From: a virus
Length of the DNA stretch: 32,406 bases
Reading direction: 5' to 3' (one strand)
Virus record (IMG/VR): IMGVR_UViG_3300010391_000184
Location: 1-32,406 of that record
Both the position numbers and the translations under genes were made by a program. Every line of letters starts with the position of its first letter. Position 1 is the stretch's first letter. Below are positions 11,446 to 31,340 of the stretch, one piece after another. The notes under the pieces are model-generated. The model was not told where the DNA came from. It worked only from the letters and a program-made list of their open reading frames with translations, and did no database searches.

Positions 11446-12343
11446 TTATCACCTCGAAACAAGAACCCACAAGCCCCGCCTTCTTCGTGTTGAAGAACGG
11501 TTCACAAAACGACTGTATCATAAAGAAAGCCTGTGCATTCGACGTCTTTACCAGGACCGCCTGAGCATAACCAAGAACTGCCCACCTAACCTTCTCAGGA
11601 TCGTCGTCGATGCCACGCAGGATTTGTGCCACGACCTTCCACGGTTTCTTATTCAACAACGCACGACACAAATCAATCACCTTCTCAGAATCAATCCTAC
11701 CTTCCATAATCGCCTGTGACCAATCCTCACGTGGAAGATGCCGAATCCTGTCGAGAATAACCAAAGCAGCCCTAGCCGATCCATCGGCAGCTTCAACGAT
11801 GTCATCCACCGAATCCCCCACATCAAACTCCTCCGACCTGGAAACTCTGTTCACAATCTCTTTAACAGAATCAGGAGGGATTCTAGATACAGCAATATCA
11901 GTACACCGTGTCCTAATCGCGCGAATCAACTTCTCGGGCTCGGTAGTACACAAGAAGAGATACGTATTTCTTGGCGTGTCCTCCAACAACTTCAAAGCAG
12001 CATGTTGAGCATCGGACGTGAGCTTGTGTACCTCGTCAAGAATCCATACACGACTCTTGCTAAACGGGCACGATGCACTCTGCCTAGTCATCTCACGAAC
12101 ACTGTCTACTCCTCGATACGATGAGGAGTTCACTTCTATCAAATCAATGCCCGTACATCCTATCGACTCATCACTAGCAAGAATCCTAGCCAATGTAGTC
12201 TTCCCGCAACCACTAGGACCAGAAAACAAAATGGCCTGTGGAATCTCCCCTGTCTTGAGCATGGACTTCAATGTCCTAACTGCCACGTCCTGACCCACCA
12301 CATCATCAAGTGCCGCGGGACGATATTTCTTGTACAGTTCCAT
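11435..12343 (-). CDS. Clamp-loader AAA+ ATPase (DnaX/T4 gp44-like), 302 aa
   Basis: The start MELYKKYRPA is the classic beginning of DnaX/RFC subunits. Walker A SGPSGCGKT is at 41-49, Walker B ILDEVH at 101-106, sensor 1 FLCTTEP at about 130-136 and the arginine-finger motif RTRC at 144-147 (SRC in most relatives). It loads the DnaN-like clamp encoded at 14892-15962. No second clamp-loader subunit gene is seen, so it may form a homo-oligomer or use host subunits. The ATG shares one base with the polymerase stop and has GGAGG 7 bases before it; I do not use the longer frame to 12373. Confidence 0.92.
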   Translation of the reverse strand: MELYKKYRPAALDDVVGQDVAVRTLKSMLKTGEIPQAILFSGPSGCGKTTLARILASDESIGCTGIDLIEVNSSSYRGVDSVREMTRQSASCPFSKSRVWILDEVHKLTSDAQHAALKLLEDTPRNTYLFLCTTEPEKLIRAIRTRCTDIAVSRIPPDSVKEIVNRVSRSEEFDVGDSVDDIVEAADGSARAALVILDRIRHLPREDWSQAIMEGRIDSEKVIDLCRALLNKKPWKVVAQILRGIDDDPEKVRWAVLGYAQAVLVKTSNAQAFFMIQSFCEPFFNTKKAGLVGSCFEVINGS

Positions 12344-13704
12344 CAAGCGACCTCCTTCTCCGGCTCCGCCCAAGACCTGCCATACACAACTGTCTCAGCC
12401 ACCAGTGGCACAATAATCCACTTCCACAGCTTGGGAAGATCAACAGTCATTACACGAGTCACCAAATCAATATACGCCGGAACCTGGTCCGCACGAACAT
12501 CCCCAAGCAAACTGTCGTGAATCTGTCCCACGATAAGTGCATCAATCTTGTGACGTCGAAGCTCAACACGCACCAGCCTAATCAACGACCACAGCAAACA
12601 ATGAAACGCGGTGCCCTGTATGGCATAGTTAATGATCTCGGTACGCTTCTTCAAACCACGACACGTGAAGCCAGTGTACAATTGCAACTTCCCGTTACGC
12701 AAATACTCCGTCACCCAATTATCACGCCACTCTCCGTATACTCTGAACCTACGACCCCAAAAATCCTCCTCAACCGATCTCAAATGTCCGGCGAACGAAC
12801 CTCGATGACAGTCTTCAGTCCCCAATTTCGTAATGCCCTTCCTCAGCAAATACTCCTCCACAGCGACGCCCGAAACCGTCTTCAATCTCCCCTCTACTGC
12901 CGACTCCCAGAGATTCTGTGCACAATGCCAATACCAATCGCCGTAGAACTGTGGGAACACAAACTGATTCTTGCTCGCGTAGCGAAGCTCCTTTGTCACC
13001 TCAGAATTCGGTATGCAGTAACACTGTGCCGCCATATCTCGGTGCATGTCCTTACTCGGATCCTTAATATACTCTATCAATGCAGGATCCTCATTATAAC
13101 AAGCCGCAATCCGGACTTCAATCCCACCATAGTCCGTCTCTACCAACTTATGACCCGGACGTGGAATGATACAACGACGGATAAGTCTGGACACCTTCAG
13201 ATTACGAACAGGTATGTTTTGGAAGTTGATTGCATCACTGCTGGACCTGTACGTCGAAACGGTGTGTAAATTGAAAAATGGTCTCAGCAACCCATCCACG
13301 ACTTCACGCCTGATCCCCTCAAGATACGTACCACGCGCCTTCATCCATGACTGAAGCTCAAGATACATCTTCACAAAGTTCAGATCCAGCTCAGAAAGTG
13401 TCGGCTCGTCGGCCCTGGGCTTCCCGGATTTGGTTTCTGGCAAGTCGCAACCATAGAACGCCCTCAGAAGTTCGGCAAGTTGTACACGAGAGCCCAAATT
13501 CATTGACCTGCCGTACATACGCTTCCACTCAACACCCGCCTCCGAACTACACAACGCCTGCCGCATCCTGGAAATCTTGTCATCCACCTTCTCAACGGCA
13601 CGATTTACATAGTTCTCATCAATACAAATACCATTCGACTCCACCTGAGCGAGAGCAATGGCGCCCTGATGTAGTAAATCGTATCCGTCTCTAGTCGTGG
13701 CCAT
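12343..13704 (-). CDS. Family A DNA polymerase, polymerase domain only, 453 aa
   Basis: The protein contains the thumb, palm and fingers of a Pol I-type enzyme: SSSDAINFQNIP (about residues 154-165), motif A VETDYGGIEVRIA (188-200), motif B as KNQFVFPQFYGDWY (245-258) and motif C GQIHDSLL (393-400, HDS rather than HDE). There is no exonuclease domain; that is encoded by the preceding gene at 13691-14890, which overlaps by 14 bases in another frame. The two products together equal one ordinary UDG-exo-polymerase polypeptide of the SPO1 type. Whether they associate, or are joined by frameshifting, cannot be told from sequence alone. Confidence 0.9.
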   Translation of the reverse strand: MATTRDGYDLLHQGAIALAQVESNGICIDENYVNRAVEKVDDKISRMRQALCSSEAGVEWKRMYGRSMNLGSRVQLAELLRAFYGCDLPETKSGKPRADEPTLSELDLNFVKMYLELQSWMKARGTYLEGIRREVVDGLLRPFFNLHTVSTYRSSSDAINFQNIPVRNLKVSRLIRRCIIPRPGHKLVETDYGGIEVRIAACYNEDPALIEYIKDPSKDMHRDMAAQCYCIPNSEVTKELRYASKNQFVFPQFYGDWYWHCAQNLWESAVEGRLKTVSGVAVEEYLLRKGITKLGTEDCHRGSFAGHLRSVEEDFWGRRFRVYGEWRDNWVTEYLRNGKLQLYTGFTCRGLKKRTEIINYAIQGTAFHCLLWSLIRLVRVELRRHKIDALIVGQIHDSLLGDVRADQVPAYIDLVTRVMTVDLPKLWKWIIVPLVAETVVYGRSWAEPEKEVA

Positions 13705-14890
13705 CGAGCCCCATCTCCCTACGCTGATGTTGCATAACCTTGAATTCGAGCAGTGAATCTAACGCATTGTAAATCAGAAGCTCTTTCCTAGACACACGAT
13801 CTATCCGGTTAGTATCATTAGCGTGTTTCGCTTTCAGATAATCCGCAACTCCCTGTTCCCAACCCCCCACACCCAAACGAATAAACGCCTGGAATTTGAT
13901 ACTACAGATTCCAGGTCGGTTATCGAGACAATGTGCAGCAAGCATAGTGTCCCAATACCAACTAGCTACCCCCCTTCCGAACACACGACGCGTCCATCTC
14001 TCCTCGAACTTCATGTTGGACGCGACTTTGAGTAAATCACGATTGAACAGAACACGGGACAGAGGCTCCAACTGCTCTTCACCAATCATACATGCCCAAG
14101 CACCACGACCCTCAAAACAAAAGCTGCAACTAACAATGCGATGCTCGGACCTATCCGGCTTCAGTCCGGTGGTCTCATAATCAAATGCCAGTATACCCCG
14201 TCCGGCTGCAAGATCATTCAAACGCTTGACGGCCTCCTTACCATCCATTACAATCTCGACTTGAGATTTAAGATCCTGCATACTATGCAGTTTGGGCAAC
14301 GGGCGACCATCAAGTCGGAATGCAGTTTTCAAATCACGTTTGAAGTCCAGCTGTGTTATCTTATCATTCCTCATCCGCAACAAATACGATGGATGATACG
14401 TCGGGCACAACCAACATCCATACTCGAGCAACGGAATCTTAAATCCTCGCCACTTCGTTACGGGTATGCCATAACGATCCCACTCGGTAGGAATTACCTG
14501 GTGCAGTGCCCACTCACCTAAAGTGACGACAACGTCGAATCCCCTGGTAAGTAGAAGCTGACGGAGCACTGGACGACAGGCCGCATGATACTCCAACCTC
14601 ATTACATTCTTCGGAGGTCGGCAGATGATCGAATTGGTTATTGTACAATCATCCAAATCATAACCACACGACTCAATCACCTCGCGCAAGTACGCCCCCG
14701 CCTGCCCAACGAACTGCCTCCCTACCTGGTCCTCGTTCTCTCCAGGAGCCTCCCCTACGATAAGGACTCTATTACGAGCTAGTCCAGACGATTTCATTTT
14801 CGGAGAGTGGCAGTTAGCATATAAACCACAAAGGTGGCATTGTGGAAGTGTTAACGACGACTCAAAACCTGTATCGAAAAGTGGTGCCAC
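13691..14890 (-). CDS. Uracil-DNA glycosylase-like plus 3'-5' exonuclease protein, 399 aa
   Basis: Residues 1-195 resemble family 4 uracil-DNA glycosylases: CHLC (18-21) with C90 and C105 make the CX2C...CX14C iron-sulfur pattern, GEAPGENE is at 46-53 and YHPSYLL at 165-171. Residues 225-390 are a DEDDy 3'-5' exonuclease: FDYET (236-240), SNMKFEERW (with E where D is usual) and YNALDSLLE near the end. This is the N-terminal part of a SPO1-like DNA polymerase, encoded apart from the polymerase domain that follows in an overlapping frame. It could proofread and sense uracil during synthesis. Confidence 0.88.
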   Translation of the reverse strand: MAPLFDTGFESSLTLPQCHLCGLYANCHSPKMKSSGLARNRVLIVGEAPGENEDQVGRQFVGQAGAYLREVIESCGYDLDDCTITNSIICRPPKNVMRLEYHAACRPVLRQLLLTRGFDVVVTLGEWALHQVIPTEWDRYGIPVTKWRGFKIPLLEYGCWLCPTYHPSYLLRMRNDKITQLDFKRDLKTAFRLDGRPLPKLHSMQDLKSQVEIVMDGKEAVKRLNDLAAGRGILAFDYETTGLKPDRSEHRIVSCSFCFEGRGAWACMIGEEQLEPLSRVLFNRDLLKVASNMKFEERWTRRVFGRGVASWYWDTMLAAHCLDNRPGICSIKFQAFIRLGVGGWEQGVADYLKAKHANDTNRIDRVSRKELLIYNALDSLLEFKVMQHQRREMGLDGHD

Positions 14891-14891
14891 A

Positions 14892-15962
14892 CTATGCCTT
14901 GTTCTGGAGCGCGATCACGAAAGTCAGTTCCTTCGTCTTCGCCACTATCCTGTTCTCGTGCACAACAACAGCACAAGAATAGTCCATGATGTTGGCAAGC
15001 AACTTCGGATGCACTTCAAAAGCAAGATCGGGACCAGTATAATCAATACTGAATGTCTCACGATACCATCCAGTCTGGCATTTCGACGCGATCTTCCCCT
15101 TCTTCTTCGCGGAACACAAATCCACCGAAACCCGCGTCGCGTAACCTACACCCTCCGCTGTGACCATTGCCCGGTGAATCATACTGCGAAGTTGCTTAGG
15201 CAGCTCGATCGGTGTCCCACCCTTGGACTTACAAACAGGCGCGAGATCGGGATACTTCTCAAGCTGGATACCCCGCACACCAAGAACCAAACGCTTCGAC
15301 TTGAAGAAACACCACCTCTTCAACATCGAGAACTGATCGAAACCACAATGCTGGAAGAACCCCTGCATCGACCTACCGGACGACCATCCTGCACCGGACA
15401 CCTTCCAATAGTTGGTAGGATCAATACAGCTGGCAGCGAGGAATATCTCATCACTAAACGATGTCTTGCCTTTCCACCTAAACAATCGGTAGTTGTCGGT
15501 GGCCTCAAGTACATCCGGAGATATGTGAACACAAGTCGAAGATCCGAAGTTCTCCTCGGATCCGCACACACCGGAAGCTGTGGTAAGATAGTCAAGCGTT
15601 TCGCGCGGTAACGACAACCATTTCTTCGGCTGGGGCAGGTCGGTAGAGGTAATCTTAACGTCACGAGTACCCATTATACCTCCAGCCCGCCTGTGACCCT
15701 TGAATACCAACTCATCGCCTTTCTGAGCGATATCAACTTCCTTGTCAGGAAATCGATCCAACAAGTCAATGATATCAACCGATGGTACGACAAGATCAAT
15801 CCCCTCAAGCCCGAGAACCTTAGCATACAAGTCGCCACCAAACACTTCAATACAACCATTGCGGAAGATGAATGCGTCTGATTGCTCGACTATACCACGC
15901 TTCGACAACGCAAACGCCACACGTTGCAATCTAGCAATCAGCCTCGAGCGTTGAATAATCAT
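14892..15962 (-). CDS. DnaN-like sliding clamp, 356 aa
   Basis: Length and pattern fit a beta-clamp: an N-terminal MIIQRSRLIARLQRVAFALS helix, repeated beta-alpha units through the protein, and a C-terminal segment EVHPKLLANIMDYSCAVVVH...LTFVIAL near the end, like the last domain of DnaN. Similarity is at the fold-pattern level rather than strict motifs, so the call rests partly on its neighbours, the clamp loader and polymerase. The ATG overlaps the preceding small gene's stop as ATGA, with AAGGA 6 bases before it. Confidence 0.75.
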   Translation of the reverse strand: MIIQRSRLIARLQRVAFALSKRGIVEQSDAFIFRNGCIEVFGGDLYAKVLGLEGIDLVVPSVDIIDLLDRFPDKEVDIAQKGDELVFKGHRRAGGIMGTRDVKITSTDLPQPKKWLSLPRETLDYLTTASGVCGSEENFGSSTCVHISPDVLEATDNYRLFRWKGKTSFSDEIFLAASCIDPTNYWKVSGAGWSSGRSMQGFFQHCGFDQFSMLKRWCFFKSKRLVLGVRGIQLEKYPDLAPVCKSKGGTPIELPKQLRSMIHRAMVTAEGVGYATRVSVDLCSAKKKGKIASKCQTGWYRETFSIDYTGPDLAFEVHPKLLANIMDYSCAVVVHENRIVAKTKELTFVIALQNKA

Positions 15963-16195
15963 TTCTTGTCCTTTCCTGCAAGTACTGAAAGTGGCCTCTC
16001 CAAACAGATATGTCGCAGGTGGTCTGTCTGGATTTCAAAAAACGATACAAGCCTACCCAAACCTGGAAACCGTTTGTGAAGACGTTTGAAGCGCTTTGGC
16101 TTACTCATCCAATCACGCATCCCACCGAGATACACAATAGTATGCTCGGCTAGAGTAACGTTCTTACCGCGGCTCCGGCGAATCTTCTTGGCCAA
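15959..16195 (-). CDS. Small basic hypothetical protein, about 78 aa
   Basis: The frame encodes AKKIRRSRGKNVTLAEHTIV and then a basic segment MSKPKRFKRLHKRFPGLGR, with no recognised family. Its stop overlaps the clamp ATG (ATGA), which argues for translation. The start is uncertain: a TTG at 16195 has GAGAG 6 bases upstream and overlaps the DpdA-like gene by 46 bases, a TTG at 16258 would overlap by 109, and the ATG at 16120 would avoid overlap but lacks a ribosome site. A clamp- or DNA-associated role is plausible from charge and position only. Confidence 0.55.
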   Translation of the reverse strand: MAKKIRRSRGKNVTLAEHTIVYLGGMRDWMSKPKRFKRLHKRFPGLGRLVSFFEIQTDHLRHICLERPLSVLAGKDKK

Positions 16196-16950
16196 GACAA
16201 TCTCTCTTTCATAAAGCGGTGAAAGTAATACACGTTCACCTGGTAACGCGCCGACCAACTATGCCTTACACCATCATCACCTTCAATTTCACAACCGCAA
16301 GCCTGGACATACGACCTAACGTAATCAATCTCTTCAGGATTCAGGTATATCCGGTATCTGCGCTTACCACGCCACTGCATCTTCGGACCGGTAACAAAAC
16401 ACGTAAATGGTGTCCTTCTGAAATCATACTGACCTTCGGTAGGTTTAGGAATCAACAACGCGCCAACCGAAGCGTGCCTGAGCCAGGAAGTGCTATCAAT
16501 CGAATACCACGGATAACGCTCCATCAATCTAAAGCTAGCCAATCCCAGGCCATGCACACGAACCTTAGGCATGGACTTGTCATCCAGGAAGTACCGCTGC
16601 CACACAGAATCAAGAACAACCTGACGCTTCTTGTTTGAACGGAATGCAAGGTTACCAAGTGCAACATAGTCAGTCAGTTCAAGATACTTTGCCAGGTACC
16701 TCTCCGGTACGTTCACATGGTACACAGGCAGGGGATTCAAGCCGAGGTCCCGCATCCTCAGCCAGTTACAGTAGCTGTACTCTCCATCTCCTACACGGTC
16801 CAGATTTATGTAAACCAAATCGCAGTTAGGGTATGAACGAATGAGTCGCTTTACATACTTGACGTACTCATCAAAGTCCACCGAGCCACCAAGACTCCAC
16901 GCACTGAACGCCCCGGAATCCAACATGAATGGTACGTGGAGTTTACTCAT
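16150..16950 (-). CDS. dpdA: DpdA-like DNA 7-deazaguanine transglycosylase, 266 aa
   Basis: The opening motif FMLDSGAFSAWSLGG (residues 8-22), with the catalytic-type Asp, and a TIM-barrel-like pattern (DLVYINLDRVGDG, LPVYHVN, VHGLGLASFRLMERYPWYSIDSTSW) are those of the phage DpdA group, distant relatives of tRNA-guanine transglycosylase. DpdA swaps guanine in DNA for preQ0 or a derivative. The gene directly follows FolE, QueC, QueE and QueD genes, which make preQ0, completing a base-modification pathway that would shield DNA from restriction. The start overlaps the FolE stop by ATGA. Confidence 0.83.
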   Translation of the reverse strand: MSKLHVPFMLDSGAFSAWSLGGSVDFDEYVKYVKRLIRSYPNCDLVYINLDRVGDGEYSYCNWLRMRDLGLNPLPVYHVNVPERYLAKYLELTDYVALGNLAFRSNKKRQVVLDSVWQRYFLDDKSMPKVRVHGLGLASFRLMERYPWYSIDSTSWLRHASVGALLIPKPTEGQYDFRRTPFTCFVTGPKMQWRGKRRYRIYLNPEEIDYVRSYVQACGCEIEGDDGVRHSWSARYQVNVYYFHRFMKERLSWPRRFAGAAVRTLL

Positions 16951-17522
16951 CTGCCTATCATCCTGAAGAACTCGTCCTTGACATTCGGCAACCTAAACAC
17001 ACCACGCATACATGATGTAACCATTATCGAATTCTGCTTCATCACACCTCTACAACTCATACAGGTGTGTTTGGCTTCCAATACACATCCACAACCACTA
17101 GGCTGTAACTTCTCCACCAACTTATCGGTTACCTGAACTCCGATACGTTCCTGGATTTGCAACCTCCTAGCATAGCAGTCAAGAAGCCTGGCTAACTTTG
17201 ACACTCCAATGATTCGGCAGTCGGTGGGTAGATATCCGATAGAAGCGGTACCTGAAAACGGCATGAGATGATGTTCGCAATAGGAAGTGAATTCAATATC
17301 ACGCAGCACTACCATTTCATCGCAACCCGCCTCTACAAACGTAGTGAATAGCAGGTCCGGGTCAATTCTATACCCTACAAACGACGAATTCAACCACGCT
17401 TCTGCCACACGCCTGGGAGTGTCCACAAGACCAGGACGTGTCACATCCTCGCCCAACGTTAGCAGCATAGTGGTAACTGAACTCTGCAATGCTAAGCGAG
17501 GTTCTATATCCTCGGCATTCAT
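16947..17522 (-). CDS. folE: GTP cyclohydrolase I, 191 aa
   Basis: The conserved order is clear: GLVDTPRRVAEAW (about residues 31-43), FTSYCEHHLMPF (about 78-89, zinc Cys and His), GVSKLARLLDCYARRLQIQE (about 106-125) and the second zinc Cys in HTCMSCRGV (about 152-160). The enzyme converts GTP to dihydroneopterin triphosphate, the first step toward preQ0. The ATG overlaps the stop of the QueC C-terminal frame as ATGA. Having its own copy suggests that the phage needs a large flux into 7-deazaguanine. Confidence 0.94.
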   Translation of the reverse strand: MNAEDIEPRLALQSSVTTMLLTLGEDVTRPGLVDTPRRVAEAWLNSSFVGYRIDPDLLFTTFVEAGCDEMVVLRDIEFTSYCEHHLMPFSGTASIGYLPTDCRIIGVSKLARLLDCYARRLQIQERIGVQVTDKLVEKLQPSGCGCVLEAKHTCMSCRGVMKQNSIMVTSCMRGVFRLPNVKDEFFRMIGR

Positions 17523-18090
17523 TGTCCGTACCCCGAGAAGATTGTTTCTCGATCCACTCCCAAACTATCAAGCTCCTCCCAAACCTGTTCCTTTGTCAGA
17601 CCGAGCAACGGGGCGCAAACCTGTACGGGCCTGGACAACGATACACGCAACAACTCGTTCATTTTGTACACAAAGTCCTGCGTGCAATCAGGAAAGCCAT
17701 TCAGTTTGCTGGTGTAGTTAGCTCCGTACCAAACCTCCGACGCTCCCATAGACTCGGCCCACGAAACAGCTACGGAAAGAAATACCAGGTTGCGAGCAGG
17801 GACATACATCGAGTGAACACCTGGATAATCGACTTCTGTAGTCAACAAACGGGATTTCACATCGACAAACGCCGCCCTCAAACTACACTGACGATGCACA
17901 AGAATCTGTGGGGAAAAGGGAGAAGAACAAATGCAACAGCAGCTCCCACTTCCTCCTCCTCCATCCTCTGTCCGTACCGAAATATCAGAGCATACACTAC
18001 ATACCCCAAACGCTTAGCACGTTCCATCAGTAAACGAGAATCCGCCCCACCACTGAACAGGATTACTACTTTCTTCTGTGCAACTGCCAT
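17519..18090 (-). pseudogene. queC: QueC-like preQ0 synthase, frameshifted and lacking the zinc-binding tail
   Basis: Frame 1 (17878-18090) encodes the N-terminal ATP-binding part, VVILFSGGADSRLLMERAKR and FRYGQRMEEEE. Frame 2 (stop at 17519) encodes the rest, including YVPARNLVFLSVAVSWAE, WYGANY and GFPDCTQDF, all QueC landmarks. A -1 shift near 17880-17925 joins them into about 190 residues. The product ends at RETIFSGYGQ, before the C-terminal Cys cluster that binds zinc in usual QueC (about 230 aa). Start support is good (AGGAG, 6-base spacer). It could be a sequencing error, programmed frameshifting or a real lesion; no canonical X XXY YYZ slip site was found. Confidence 0.8.
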
Positions 18091-18099
18091 GACAAACTC

Positions 18100-18777
18100 C
18101 TAACGCAAACCCCAATCCTTGTGACGTTGTTCCGACACCCTCCACGACGGGTCTTTCATTACCATTGCCACGACTTCCTTTATGTTGGTAGGAGGCGTGG
18201 CCCCGGGATCGTACAGCGGCTGCAAGTACTTCACTGGCCACTTCAACGAGCCCCAATCCTCTACAATACGACTGAAATCGAAATCCTTCCACTTCCCCTG
18301 GATATCGTACACCACCTTAAGAGCCACACGTGGATTCTGTAGTAGCACTCTATACCAATAACCATACACCTCATCCCAATTCTTGATTCGTGATGCGTCC
18401 AGCTTAGGAGACACTACCACCTGTGTGAATTTGTGAATGCCTGGAATGGGAAACATACCATTCGTTTCAATGTGAAGCGAAAACCCGCACAAGTCAAACA
18501 GGTAGTCCACAAGAGCTTCGTCAACAGAGCGAGACGGCTCACCACCTGTGAAACAAACGTGTTCGATTCCATTCCAAACCGATCTTGTTCCAACAGCCTT
18601 TGTAACTAAACGTGCTAGCTCTCCAGGATCCTCTGCCTTCATCTTGAAACTGAAATCCGTGTCACACCACACGCAACGCAAGTTACAACCCGCCATACGC
18701 ACGAACGTCATAGCTTGACCGGCCCACGGCCCCTCTCCCTGGATTGAATAGAAGATTTCGGAAATTCTGTACGTCAC
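18100..18777 (-). CDS. queE: QueE-like radical SAM enzyme (7-carboxy-7-deazaguanine synthase), 225 aa
   Basis: The [4Fe-4S]/SAM motif CNLRCVWC is at residues 31-38, preceded by IFYSIQGEGPWAG (about 8-20), the QueE hallmark, and followed by CFTGGEPS (about 76-83) and LHIETNG. The enzyme converts carboxytetrahydropterin to 7-carboxy-7-deazaguanine. I chose the GTG at 18777, which has GGAG 7 bases upstream and lies 4 bases after the QueD stop; an ATG at 18825 is in frame but has only a poor site and would overlap queD. Confidence 0.9.
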   Translation of the reverse strand: MTYRISEIFYSIQGEGPWAGQAMTFVRMAGCNLRCVWCDTDFSFKMKAEDPGELARLVTKAVGTRSVWNGIEHVCFTGGEPSRSVDEALVDYLFDLCGFSLHIETNGMFPIPGIHKFTQVVVSPKLDASRIKNWDEVYGYWYRVLLQNPRVALKVVYDIQGKWKDFDFSRIVEDWGSLKWPVKYLQPLYDPGATPPTNIKEVVAMVMKDPSWRVSEQRHKDWGLR

Positions 18778-18781
18778 GGCA

Positions 18782-19222
18782 CTACTCCATCTCACAGTAA
18801 CTAGCACCACACGTGGTGGTTTCATTTACTGTAACCTGGAAAACCTCCACACCTCTGCTCACCAATTCGGTACCATTAACGAAACACCTCAGCCGTGTGA
18901 AGATATGCCGGGCAAGACATTCGGCAGTTGGATTGAACTGGCATATCATGACACGCTTCAGATCTTTTCGTCGAGCATACGTCTTAGCAATCTCTACAGG
19001 CAACAACAATGCATGATCGAATTCTGCCCGGATTTCGTCAATGAACTCGCGAAGTCTACCAAAATCAACCACCATGCCGTTTCCATCCAGACATGATGCC
19101 TGCAACGAAATACGACACTTGTATGAGTGTCCATGTATACAATCCGAACACTCCTTACTGAAACAACCGGGTAGCAACTGATGTGCCGCCTCAAAACTAA
19201 ATTCCTTCTCAACGACGTACAT
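18782..19222 (-). CDS. queD: QueD-like 6-carboxytetrahydropterin synthase, 146 aa
   Basis: Residues FSFEAAHQL (8-16) and CSDCIHGHSYKC (25-36) give the zinc histidines and the catalytic-cysteine region, DFGRLREFIDEI (about 55-66) and FDHALLL (about 71-77) are the next family motifs, and VNETTTC near the end supplies the catalytic Glu. It makes carboxytetrahydropterin from the FolE product. ATG with GGGAG 6 bases upstream is at 19222, one base from the end of the helicase gene, so it is translated within the replication operon. Confidence 0.9.
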   Translation of the reverse strand: MYVVEKEFSFEAAHQLLPGCFSKECSDCIHGHSYKCRISLQASCLDGNGMVVDFGRLREFIDEIRAEFDHALLLPVEIAKTYARRKDLKRVMICQFNPTAECLARHIFTRLRCFVNGTELVSRGVEVFQVTVNETTTCGASYCEME

Positions 19223-19223
19223 G

Positions 19224-20663
19224 CTATTCTCCCTTAACCTTCTCCCTTCTATTATCAATCGCCGAACAACACAGAGCACGCGATAGAGCGAAACACTGAG
19301 CAACCCACAGACACTTCGCAGGTTGATATGCTGACTCACGTAGCACCAACCAGTTCAAACGCATCAGGTTCAGTTGCTTCTCAGTCTCTATCTGGTTCAG
19401 ACCCAACATGCCAGTAACGTGTGCTAGCTTCCTCTTGTCCTCACTGAAGTTACGCATCGTCTGCGTCTGGCGGTCATACGATTCGGTATCAGCTTGCGTA
19501 GGTGCTACCACCAAACAATGCCGCTCTTGACTAAGACGCCGCATAGCCGCCCAAATGGAATTGACCTGATCACGCGCCTGTAACCGCGGATCTTCAGGAG
19601 CCAGGATATCGGCATAGTCAATAACCACAACGTCGGGAATGAAGTTGTGCTGAACTTCCCACCCATCCAGAATCGACTCCAAATTCTTTACACTAAGCGA
19701 GCCTGTTGGATGTACGGACACCAACAAGTACGGACGATGAGCAGGTATACCACATCTACGCAAGAACTTCTTGATCGCTGCCGAACAACTCCCCATACTT
19801 ACTGGTTCGGAACACTTATGGTTTCGGTAGGACACCGATGGAGTTTCGTCAAGCCCCACGAACTCAACCCTCTCTGGCACCCTAATAACGCCACACTGAG
19901 ACTTCCACAACGGGAGGCCAGTGATGCGAACAGCAATTCGCCGGAGGATCTGTCCTTCTGACAAGTCCCCCACCTCGAACAACGCCACACGACGACGCTG
20001 CTTCAATGCCTGCATCACAAACTCCAACGCCCAGAATGTCTTGCCTCTCTTCTCCGGCGCCTGTATACCTATCAACGAATCCCGTGCACAAGCAACATTC
20101 AAAAAACGGCCTGCAGGGCCGGGAAACAGCAACAACGGATCGGTATGTTCGGTGAATGCCCGGTCCCAAGCCTCGACGTCGTCAAACGGATTGACTCCCG
20201 TTTCTGCCCTGACATCCGCACACCGAAACGACTGCACGGCACGAAGAGCCTCGTCCACCTTCCCTCGATGCATAGATTCTTGCAGTGAATCAGTTAACCT
20301 GGACAACCGGCGTCCGGCAACGTACGAACCAAGCTGATCCTGCAGGTAGGCAAGATTGATCTTCTCGACGGATTTGAACGACGCCCCGAACTCGGTAAGC
20401 AAAGTGTGCAGAGAATTCGCATCAGCTTCCGGACGATCGCCACTCTCCAGCCAGGCAAAGTAGATTGACTCGATTGCCTGCTTAGGTGCCACTCCGTACG
20501 TCTTGTAGTAGTCCAGGGACCACTGAGCAAGCATCCTCAACTGAGGTGACAGGAGTAGGGCGGGGTCGAGCTTCAATGACGCGAGAGCGGCGAAGGCGTC
20601 ACTTACCATCAACGCCAGTACCAACTGCTTCTCTACTGTAGTATCAAGCCGTTTACGCAGCAT
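19224..20663 (-). CDS. DnaB-like replicative helicase, 479 aa
   Basis: The N-terminal helical domain (residues 1-110) resembles DnaB-N, and the RecA-type core has a Walker A APEKRGKT (202-209, Ala in place of the first Gly), a FEVGDLSEGQILRRIA segment (about 225-240), Walker B DVVVIDYADIL (about 345-355) and VVAPTQAD (about 384-391). It should form a hexamer that unwinds the fork with the primase. The last 50 residues are Arg- and Cys-rich (CLWVAQCFALSRALCCSA) and look atypical; a separate tail or a frame change there is possible. It overlaps the previous gene by 11 bases. Confidence 0.87.
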   Translation of the reverse strand: MLRKRLDTTVEKQLVLALMVSDAFAALASLKLDPALLLSPQLRMLAQWSLDYYKTYGVAPKQAIESIYFAWLESGDRPEADANSLHTLLTEFGASFKSVEKINLAYLQDQLGSYVAGRRLSRLTDSLQESMHRGKVDEALRAVQSFRCADVRAETGVNPFDDVEAWDRAFTEHTDPLLLFPGPAGRFLNVACARDSLIGIQAPEKRGKTFWALEFVMQALKQRRRVALFEVGDLSEGQILRRIAVRITGLPLWKSQCGVIRVPERVEFVGLDETPSVSYRNHKCSEPVSMGSCSAAIKKFLRRCGIPAHRPYLLVSVHPTGSLSVKNLESILDGWEVQHNFIPDVVVIDYADILAPEDPRLQARDQVNSIWAAMRRLSQERHCLVVAPTQADTESYDRQTQTMRNFSEDKRKLAHVTGMLGLNQIETEKQLNLMRLNWLVLRESAYQPAKCLWVAQCFALSRALCCSAIDNRREKVKGE

Positions 20664-30494: not shown

Positions 30495-31340
30495 CTATTT
30501 CCTATTCACTACAGGAACCGACTCGAGGGTGTGATAGATTTTCAACTTCCTGTCTGTTGCAATTTCTAATTCTCGATCCGCTCCGGGTGAAGCATCGATA
30601 CGAAACAGTGCCGTAGCCCAAAGCTTGACAATCGACAGGTCCAGGGCTAACAATGCCTCGTATTTCGACGGGCTGACTCGGACACCATCCGGACCACGTA
30701 CCACGTAGTTATGCGGAGTGAATACAATGTGTCCCTTGTCCTCTAGCGTTCTGCCTATCAACTGACCTAACTGGTGATTGCGTAAATACGCATCAGGATC
30801 ATCGGTGGAGATCGGACCGGACACGTAGATTCTTTCCTGCTCCACACTCTTGTTACTCGTCTTCCTAGCAACACAACACGTCTCATCCGCAAGAATTTCA
30901 GGTATTAGTGATCGAACCAACTTCTCGAATGTTGCTACTGGCTCACAACCCTGTATCTGCCAGGCAGGGGCAGGAACTGGAATGTCATACTTCGGCATGT
31001 CGTCAAGAGACCCCGGCAGAACTCCGCGACGGATCAGTTCCTCGTAGTGCATGATCGCTGCACACCAAAACCTAATCGCGGCCAAACAGTCACCGTGGTC
31101 GGGGTCGTTATCGCGTTTCATAAACTGCATCAGATGCCGGTGGATGGATTGGACACAACGTGAGAATGGGATGCCCTTCTCCCAATTGCGAAGCCCGCGA
31201 TGGGCCGAACCCCATTCGTACAACCTCGCGTCCCGCTCCTGAACGAACGGACTCATTAACTCGTACATTCCCCGACCTGCAGTTTTCTGACGGACGGCCC
31301 CTGTCTCAAGAGTTTCATTTGGAATCGGATTCACAATCAA
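30495..31340 (-). CDS. Fusion of a dATP/dGTP diphosphohydrolase-like domain and a DUF4406-like domain, 281 aa
   Basis: Residues 18-103 (KTAGRGMYELMSPF, LYEWGSAHRGLRNWEKGIPF, SIHRHLMQF, DCLAAIRFWCAAIMHYEEL) carry the HIS/Asp pattern of the DUF5664 family, annotated as phage dATP/dGTP diphosphohydrolase N-terminal domain. Residues 169-275 (RIYVSGPIS, GHIVFTPHNYV, LALDLSIVKLWATALFRID) fit the DUF4406/nucleoside 2-deoxyribosyltransferase-like fold. The fusion suggests nucleotide-pool remodelling, in line with the modified-base genes further left. The first domain lacks a check of active residues, and the substrate is unproven. It overlaps the winged-helix gene by 4 bases. Confidence 0.75.
   Translation of the reverse strand: MIVNPIPNETLETGAVRQKTAGRGMYELMSPFVQERDARLYEWGSAHRGLRNWEKGIPFSRCVQSIHRHLMQFMKRDNDPDHGDCLAAIRFWCAAIMHYEELIRRGVLPGSLDDMPKYDIPVPAPAWQIQGCEPVATFEKLVRSLIPEILADETCCVARKTSNKSVEQERIYVSGPISTDDPDAYLRNHQLGQLIGRTLEDKGHIVFTPHNYVVRGPDGVRVSPSKYEALLALDLSIVKLWATALFRIDASPGADRELEIATDRKLKIYHTLESVPVVNRK

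Follow-up and report, generated by a model that had tools for sequence, protein, structure and literature searches.

Phages with 7-deazaguanine bases in their DNA carry recognizable gene cassettes. The group 2 preQ0 cassettes of Hutinet 2019 (CAjan and Rosebush) combine the transglycosylase DpdA with FolE, QueD, QueE, and QueC, and the Gat-QueC cassettes of the dG+ type in 9g and PaMx25 (Queuovirinae) have DpdA followed by the clamp, together with QueE, QueD, and FolE. We examined an operon of this kind in the virus record IMGVR_UViG_3300010391_000184, a linear record of 32,406 bases (here called the window), and compared it with related contigs numbered L002 to L158. Because the record is a linear fragment of this length, the genome is probably incomplete. 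The window has the same five genes as the CAjan and Rosebush group, and no amidotransferase was found among the scanned proteins of this 32.4-kb fragment. However, its DpdA falls in another well-supported clade, FolE alone lies between QueC and DpdA, and its QueC is short, frame-broken, and without the zinc motif. The succession of DpdA and clamp and the presence of QueE, QueD, and FolE are as in 9g and PaMx25, but profile scans matched no GAT domain on the window QueC, which is thus not of the Gat-QueC type and would have about 190 rather than about 470 amino acids. The window operon is almost certainly a 7-deazaguanine DNA modification cassette. The five-gene cassette is of a known kind, but its QueC belongs to a branch of short, zinc-less phage proteins, and the exact base is not readable from the known examples. 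The features are as follows.

19224..20663, minus strand: DnaB-type replicative helicase, upstream neighbor (phrog_19, E 4.8e-24)
18782..19222, minus strand: queD, 6-carboxytetrahydropterin synthase, 146 amino acids (PF01242, E 2.8e-26; phrog_2389, 9.8e-21)
18100..18825, minus strand: queE, 7-carboxy-7-deazaguanine synthase, radical SAM, 241 amino acids (PF04055, 7.1e-8; phrog_2076, 2.6e-32)
17908..18090 (3' limit approximate), minus strand: queC N-terminal half, with SGGADS and YGQRMEEE (PF06508, 4e-9)
17914..17920, minus strand: C_CCT_TTT, an X_XXY_YYZ heptamer, in phase, within the frame-break region; a possible slippage site or a run-rich stretch liable to sequencing errors
17519..17899, minus strand: queC C-terminal half, in the -1 frame relative to the N-terminal half, with VPARN, FPDCTQ, TKEQV, and the end IFSGYGQ (PF06508, 6.4e-26)
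16947..17522, minus strand: folE, GTP cyclohydrolase I, 191 amino acids (PF01227, 1.5e-60; TIGR00063, above cut-off)
16150..16950, minus strand: dpdA, DNA guanine transglycosylase, 266 amino acids, intact (phrog_887, 2e-44)
about 15959..16135, minus strand: small open reading frame (ORF), companion of DpdA, with YLGG..LVSFFEIQ; a GTG start is proposed
14892..15962, minus strand: clamp (DNA polymerase processivity factor), downstream neighbor (phrog_947, 2.7e-10)

The order on the minus strand is DnaB-type helicase, queD, queE, queC, folE, dpdA, clamp, uracil-DNA glycosylase (UDG)-exonuclease, and DNA polymerase A. A sequence-only reading of the window had described adjacent and overlapping QueD, QueE, FolE, and DpdA-like genes between the replicative helicase and the clamp, and this layout was borne out by the Pfam and PHROGs matches of the genes and both flanks. 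ATGA overlaps were found at QueC/FolE and FolE/DpdA, QueD and QueE overlap by 44 nt, and queC starts at 18090, 9 nt after queE. The sibling contig L032 has the same cassette gene order at 32 to 60% identity, which argues against a chance arrangement. The same reading held that guanine is replaced by a 7-deazaguanine base, and here gene set, synteny with L032, DpdA fold, and phylogeny agree, so that 7-deazaguanine DNA modification via DpdA is well supported. By homology, FolE, QueD, and QueE would make 7-carboxy-7-deazaguanine (CDG) from GTP, and DpdA, an enzyme of the tRNA-guanine transglycosylase (TGT) fold, would swap guanine in DNA for a 7-deazaguanine base. The operon would replace part of the guanine in the phage DNA and probably shields the DNA from restriction.

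QueD, QueE, and FolE are intact and, by their profile matches, ordinary representatives of their families. The matches of QueD to TIGR03367 (9.2e-22) and of QueE to TIGR04508 (7e-27) were below the cut-offs; the HGHSY and ETTT motifs of QueD and the CxxxCxxC motif of QueE are present. The absence of QueF and of a Gat-QueC fusion, as read earlier, held in the profile scans: no QueF gene was found among the scanned window proteins, and FolE alone weakly matched the QueF models. The window FolE lacks a phosphoribosyltransferase-like extension found in many relatives, and this extension might serve in the salvage of guanine released by DpdA. In a motif scan, the N-terminal fusion was seen in 14 of 25 FolE-bearing lineage contigs (including L034, L038, L045, L049, L055, L069, L075, L084, L096, L110, and L119:7648-8553), with a Pribosyltran match below its cut-off in the three tested. 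At L008:3560-4936, two FolE matches lie about 830 bases apart, perhaps because of an intron or an inserted gene.

The window DpdA had no Pfam or NCBIfam match and was recognized by PHROGs. Its 266-amino-acid model, built from 41 window and IMG/VR sequences, had a mean pLDDT (predicted local distance difference test score) of 91. A second look with VIA-align gave Z 12.7 against 7ui4, titled DNA preQ0 insertase DpdA, and Z 12.4 to 12.8 against TGTs. A profile alignment to 7ui4, weak at E 0.068, paired D11 and D152 of the window protein with Asp, and across the 41 aligned rows D152 was invariant and D11 was conserved in at least 90%. The modeled protein has a TGT-like barrel with two conserved Asp residues, and base exchange on DNA is predicted. 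In the DpdA tree, the window protein grouped with those of L032 and L033 (support 100/99) and then with L069; CAjan, 9g, and PaMx25 form a separate clade. For the DpdA alignment, L017, L021, L030, L044, and L057 were dropped as partial or odd and further rows by choice, with 41 kept. The sequence-only reading had named grouping with unrelated TIM-barrel proteins as the outcome that would speak against DpdA. No such grouping was found in the tree or with VIA-align; the plain Foldseek ranking alone gave weak matches, to TIM barrels and other folds only, at E 0.02 or worse. Judged from model and tree, the window protein is an intact DpdA. To our knowledge, no member of its branch has been tested.

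A small ORF follows DpdA, outside the interval of 16150-19222 considered earlier. In a motif scan, 18/27 lineage contigs (L034-L101 range) had this companion (MxIYFSGG..PE..LLTFYD) as a separate small ORF directly behind DpdA, against none of the 29 contigs L002-L030, and it is fused to DpdA in L032 (372 amino acids) and L033 (344 amino acids). The homology between the window companion and those of the relatives is modest (hhalign probability 64.5, E 6e-5), and two companion sequences tested had no Pfam match. The tails of the L032 and L033 proteins match the window in another frame, and a frame break in DpdA too was considered and rejected. Since the companion is a separate ORF in 18/27 contigs versus 0/29, and since the DpdA proteins of these contigs stop at the same point as that of the window, its missing tail is treated as a split companion and not as a frame break.

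The C(x)8CxxCxxC zinc motif is a hallmark of canonical QueC (PMC13329287, in the text available). In the alignment, it was absent from the QueC proteins of the window, L032, and L118-L125, whose chains stop at the SGY end. The latter eight contigs, three of them of 119 to 223 kb, were found by a search seeded with the window and L032 sequences, and the 10 rows (window C half, L032, and the eight others) form a clade with support 99/99 that appeared in 100% of 200 bootstrap trees. Most members have 184 to 192 amino acids. The clade shares SGGxDS, VPxRN, PDC, Lys, and the Tyr of the SGY end with canonical QueC (PF06508 cluster 1; 3bl5 and 2pg3), and the window reads SGGADS and VPARN at the first two. 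The short form differs in ending at SGYG, in lacking the zinc motif, and in having FPDC in place of YPDC in the window, L032, and L118-L125. A model of the L032 QueC (pLDDT 86) had two nearest solved structures that are tied, namely, Cap9 of type IV CBASS (cyclic oligonucleotide-based antiphage signaling system) (9nto; Z 19.9, root mean square deviation 2.0, 161 aligned) and canonical QueC (Z 19.2 and 18.6). Cap9 resembles the short QueC in being a minimal QueC-like enzyme acting on CDG. However, Cap9 has retained a zinc motif and is encoded next to a CD-NTase (PMC13329287), whereas the window QueC lacks CE(x)6CxxCxxCxD and has QueE and FolE as neighbors, with no CD-NTase adjoining.

The short QueC also belongs to 7-deazaguanine DNA modification, judged from the genes with which it shares records. 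Among the nine short-QueC records (L032 and L118-L125), QueE was found in eight, the exception being the 16.6-kb contig L124, and a DpdA-like gene (phrog_887) was found in seven, with none in L124 or in L125, a contig of 23 kb. The phrog_887 matches in L118, L120, L121, and L122 were weak (E 1.5e-4 to 2.8e-8), in an open frame longer than the window DpdA. FolE was present in 3/9 and QueD in 4/9 of these records. An ORF with a DSGGF motif was seen by eye in L125. In the large phages L118, L120-L122, L125, and L129-L133, the short QueC lies amid genes for dCMP deaminase, a nucleoside deoxyribosyltransferase-like protein, and ThyX; several have a second glycosyltransferase-like gene near it, and QueE, a GroES-like protein (by eye), and a long DpdA-like protein are clustered elsewhere.

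Zinc-bearing forms are found in described phages, with the motif present in the QueC proteins of CAjan, 9g, PaMx25, VH7D, phi38:2, and Knocker. In the phage collection, of cultured or named phages, six of the best matches to short QueCs were read (219, 195, and 178 records matched), and all six had the zinc motif and YPDC. Two further zinc losses were found in full-length QueCs with replaced zinc cysteines (HTSYDGKYPP..., MTDYNGD...) in complete DpdA cassettes, one in L002, L006-L008, L014, L016, L017, L019-L021, and L023 and the other in L028 and L029. The zinc status of L088 is void, as its QueC is cut by the locus end. The proposition that queC is simply absent from many lineage cassettes was rejected, as a full-record search of L068, L088, and L098, whose local cassettes have no QueC, found it elsewhere in the record; the same search found none in L046 and L108, which bear DpdA and have 58 and 74 kb. 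A 2023 paper, cited in PMC12783734 but outside our literature survey, reportedly adds four 7-deazaguanines. In the available portions of the 7-deazaguanine literature surveyed (PMC6884629, PMC8306585, PMC13329287, PMC13279940, and PMC12783734), we found no description of a short zinc-less phage QueC or of a sugar-linked 7-deazaguanine in DNA.

The short, zinc-less QueC retains the motifs for ATP and CDG binding despite the loss of the zinc domain. It probably still binds both and activates the CDG carboxyl group, and it would most likely stop at an amide, either ADG or an amide with another amine. We tentatively favor dADG or a substituted carboxamide as the inserted base over the nitrile dPreQ0, because one of the two tied nearest structural neighbors makes an amide and because the lost domain is kept by the nitrile-making family. 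Cap9 joins CDG to an amine, with no free base made (PMC13279940), and in the CmoX/CmoY system of phage DNA, an amide is formed at a base through its carboxyl group (PMC12783734). The latter, a carboxymethylcytosine hypermodification, shares only the logic of a carboxyl handle for an ATP-dependent amide ligase; its base is another one, and CmoY is an asparagine synthetase homolog rather than a QueC. As the window is without sugar genes, dADG would be the simplest amide for this phage.

Several points weigh against an amide. The weakest link of the argument is that Cap9 keeps a zinc motif, so zinc loss as such is no pointer to amide chemistry. A second QueC clade, with replaced zinc cysteines, also occurs in complete DpdA cassettes, the YxQxHxxE motif reads YGQRMEEE in the window, with His lost (YGQIHAAE of L032 fits), and queC is unreadable as one frame in the window contig. 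A host QueC could supply preQ0, and the 9g DpdA alone inserts dPreQ0 in Escherichia coli (PMC6884629). The sequence evidence here is compatible with a zinc-less QueC that may make preQ0.

The main rival is that the phage makes preQ0 and inserts dPreQ0, with the short QueC performing both ATP-dependent steps or a host QueC completing the pathway. Every residue reported as essential for the E. coli QueC (PMC13329287) has a counterpart in the short clade (the Tyr of YxQ, the Arg of VPxRN, an aromatic residue at Y131, and Tyr189), and Y131F of the E. coli enzyme is partly active (PMC13329287). However, the hallmark motif is gone from all 10 short QueCs, while CAjan and 9g keep it, and the window queC is frame-broken. 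CAjan and 9g, in which dPreQ0 or dG+ has been measured, offer no close model for the window, since their QueC has the zinc motif. An intact QueC would be expected in a preQ0 cassette; that of the window is frame-split, and the sibling L032 has an intact short QueC. We consider dPreQ0 possible but somewhat doubtful. It had been the prediction of the sequence-only reading, which is partly supported: the 7-deazaguanine stands, whereas the step to dPreQ0 is weak, as it assumes a working canonical QueC, yet the gene is out of frame and zinc-less.

Fuller cassettes in relatives may point to a more elaborate product. L119 and L123 add a radical SAM protein, a glycosyltransferase-like protein, and a small protein with an APHxDDE motif, which we take to be the motif of PIG-L deacetylases; Pfam support for the PIG-L-like deacetylase was weak. 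The glycosyltransferase was present in 7/9 short-QueC records versus 0/21 records with other QueCs (Fisher p 2e-5), and the deacetylase was present in the same seven versus 1/21 (a borderline fragment, E 1e-3). A search of the 32-kb window fragment found neither gene, and the phage collection held no close match to either. The loci fetched with the deacetylase (n = 27, several near-identical) had the glycosyltransferase within 5 kb in 26 cases. In L134-L138, L148-L151, L157, and L158, the order is radical SAM, short QueC, deacetylase, glycosyltransferase, DpdA, clamp, and UDG-exonuclease, with replication neighbors that resemble those of the window. L153 likewise has an extended cassette, with radical SAM, PIG-L-like deacetylase, and glycosyltransferase genes between the short QueC and DpdA; the phages with these extended cassettes are uncultured.

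The short zinc-less QueC would then be a CDG amide ligase that, with the glycosyltransferase, the PIG-L-like deacetylase, and the extra radical SAM protein, yields a sugar-bearing, amide-linked 7-deazaguanine placed by DpdA, and the window would hold such a cassette in trimmed form or in decay, with dADG, dCDG, or no modified base as its product. Mycothiol synthesis is a comparable scheme, with a glycosyltransferase, a deacetylase, and an amide ligase. Among 16 QueCs near the deacetylase, 15 were short and zinc-less. Counting against such a linkage, the remaining one (L154) is of the zinc type, and no QueC match was found in 9 of the 20 deacetylase records searched, one of them of 312 kb. QueC is therefore not an obligate partner of the sugar module, which follows CDG synthesis more strictly (QueE in 19/20 records versus QueC in 11/20). 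We regard this scheme as doubtful.

Other explanations start from the frame break in queC. The halves lie in different frames, with PF06508 profile positions 1-44 matched in one and 73-184 in the other, and one sibling protein covers both pieces. The QueC-like gene noted earlier was thus confirmed in part, in that PF06508 matches both pieces, but it is split over two frames and has no zinc motif. Each of the 19 other window genes with relatives matches in a single frame, so the contig is not generally error-ridden; with one break in roughly 17 kb, an assembly error and a real lesion are indistinguishable. Since queC is in one frame in L032 (185 amino acids, end FSGYGESR) and L118-L125, the break in the window may be put down to faulty assembly or to a lesion that arose recently, the gene being intact in relatives.

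A second reading of the break is that queC is truly dead and that the cassette is decaying or works without its own QueC, inserting CDG (as dCDG) or a host-made 7-deazaguanine. The single-frame matches of the 19 other genes speak for it, as does L031, a close relative whose helicase and clamp genes have no cassette between them. In phage Bipper, QueC alone is missing, and PMC6884629 names CDG as the possible base. However, the C half of the window queC is still conserved (54% identity to L032 over residues 27-126), so any break would be recent. Runs of C and T at the site make a mistake in assembly plausible, and a 21-base probe beside the break found no other contig for comparison. We consider a dead queC unlikely.

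The interval between helicase and clamp is variable. The helicase and polymerase of L031 share 57 to 59% identity with those of the window, yet its interval contains a few small ORFs and no cassette, and other relatives have unrelated genes in this interval. Cassette gain and loss therefore appear common, which fits a queC lesion and is no proof of it. In the cassette-free interval L031:3838-4363, one small ORF looks, by eye, like a small ORF of the L032 cassette. A search for closely similar DNA in phages gave no match, and no relatives were found in viral contigs with the QueC C half or DnaB. A polymerase search of genome contigs for a host returned only DCUA01000217.1 and QMSR01000001.1 (L127 and L128), phages of this lineage binned into metagenome-assembled genomes of Firmicutes and Thermoplasmata, respectively; L128, equal in length to the viral contig L036, is probably a mis-binned phage. 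In the window, one ORF (13691-14890) joins a UDG domain to a 3'-5' exonuclease, and a second ORF that overlaps it (12343-13704) carries the polymerase A domain; this arrangement is conserved across the lineage. The C-terminal part of the ORF at 30495-31340 starts IYVSGPI and resembles, by eye, a nucleoside 2-deoxyribosyltransferase-type domain.

Programmed -1 frameshifting at C_CCT_TTT could instead express queC as a protein of about 190 amino acids, a length that fits the clade. The in-phase heptamer (17920-17914) lies in the region of the break, and the predicted fold of the RNA immediately downstream is somewhat more stable than those of shuffled sequences (z -1.95). However, L032 and L118-L125 have queC in one frame, and by our estimate 20 codons rich in runs would not rarely contain such a heptamer, which makes frameshifting quite improbable. 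Very remote is the idea that the genes boost host tRNA queuosine without DNA modification: QueD, QueE, QueC, and FolE are common to queuosine synthesis (PMC6884629), but the operon holds a DpdA of the phage DNA-modifying type by phrog_887 and tree, and no QueF, QueA, QueG, or QueH was found among the scanned window proteins.

When the DNA bases of phages are predicted from their genes, the rule is that a QueC without an amidotransferase means dPreQ0. The branch of zinc-less QueC proteins found alongside DpdA marks a place where this rule may fail, and it gives defined genes and contigs for asking what its product is. If the sugar-linked reading were true, phages would carry a class of glycosylated 7-deazaguanines, with consequences for restriction escape and for enzymes that build up large groups on DNA.

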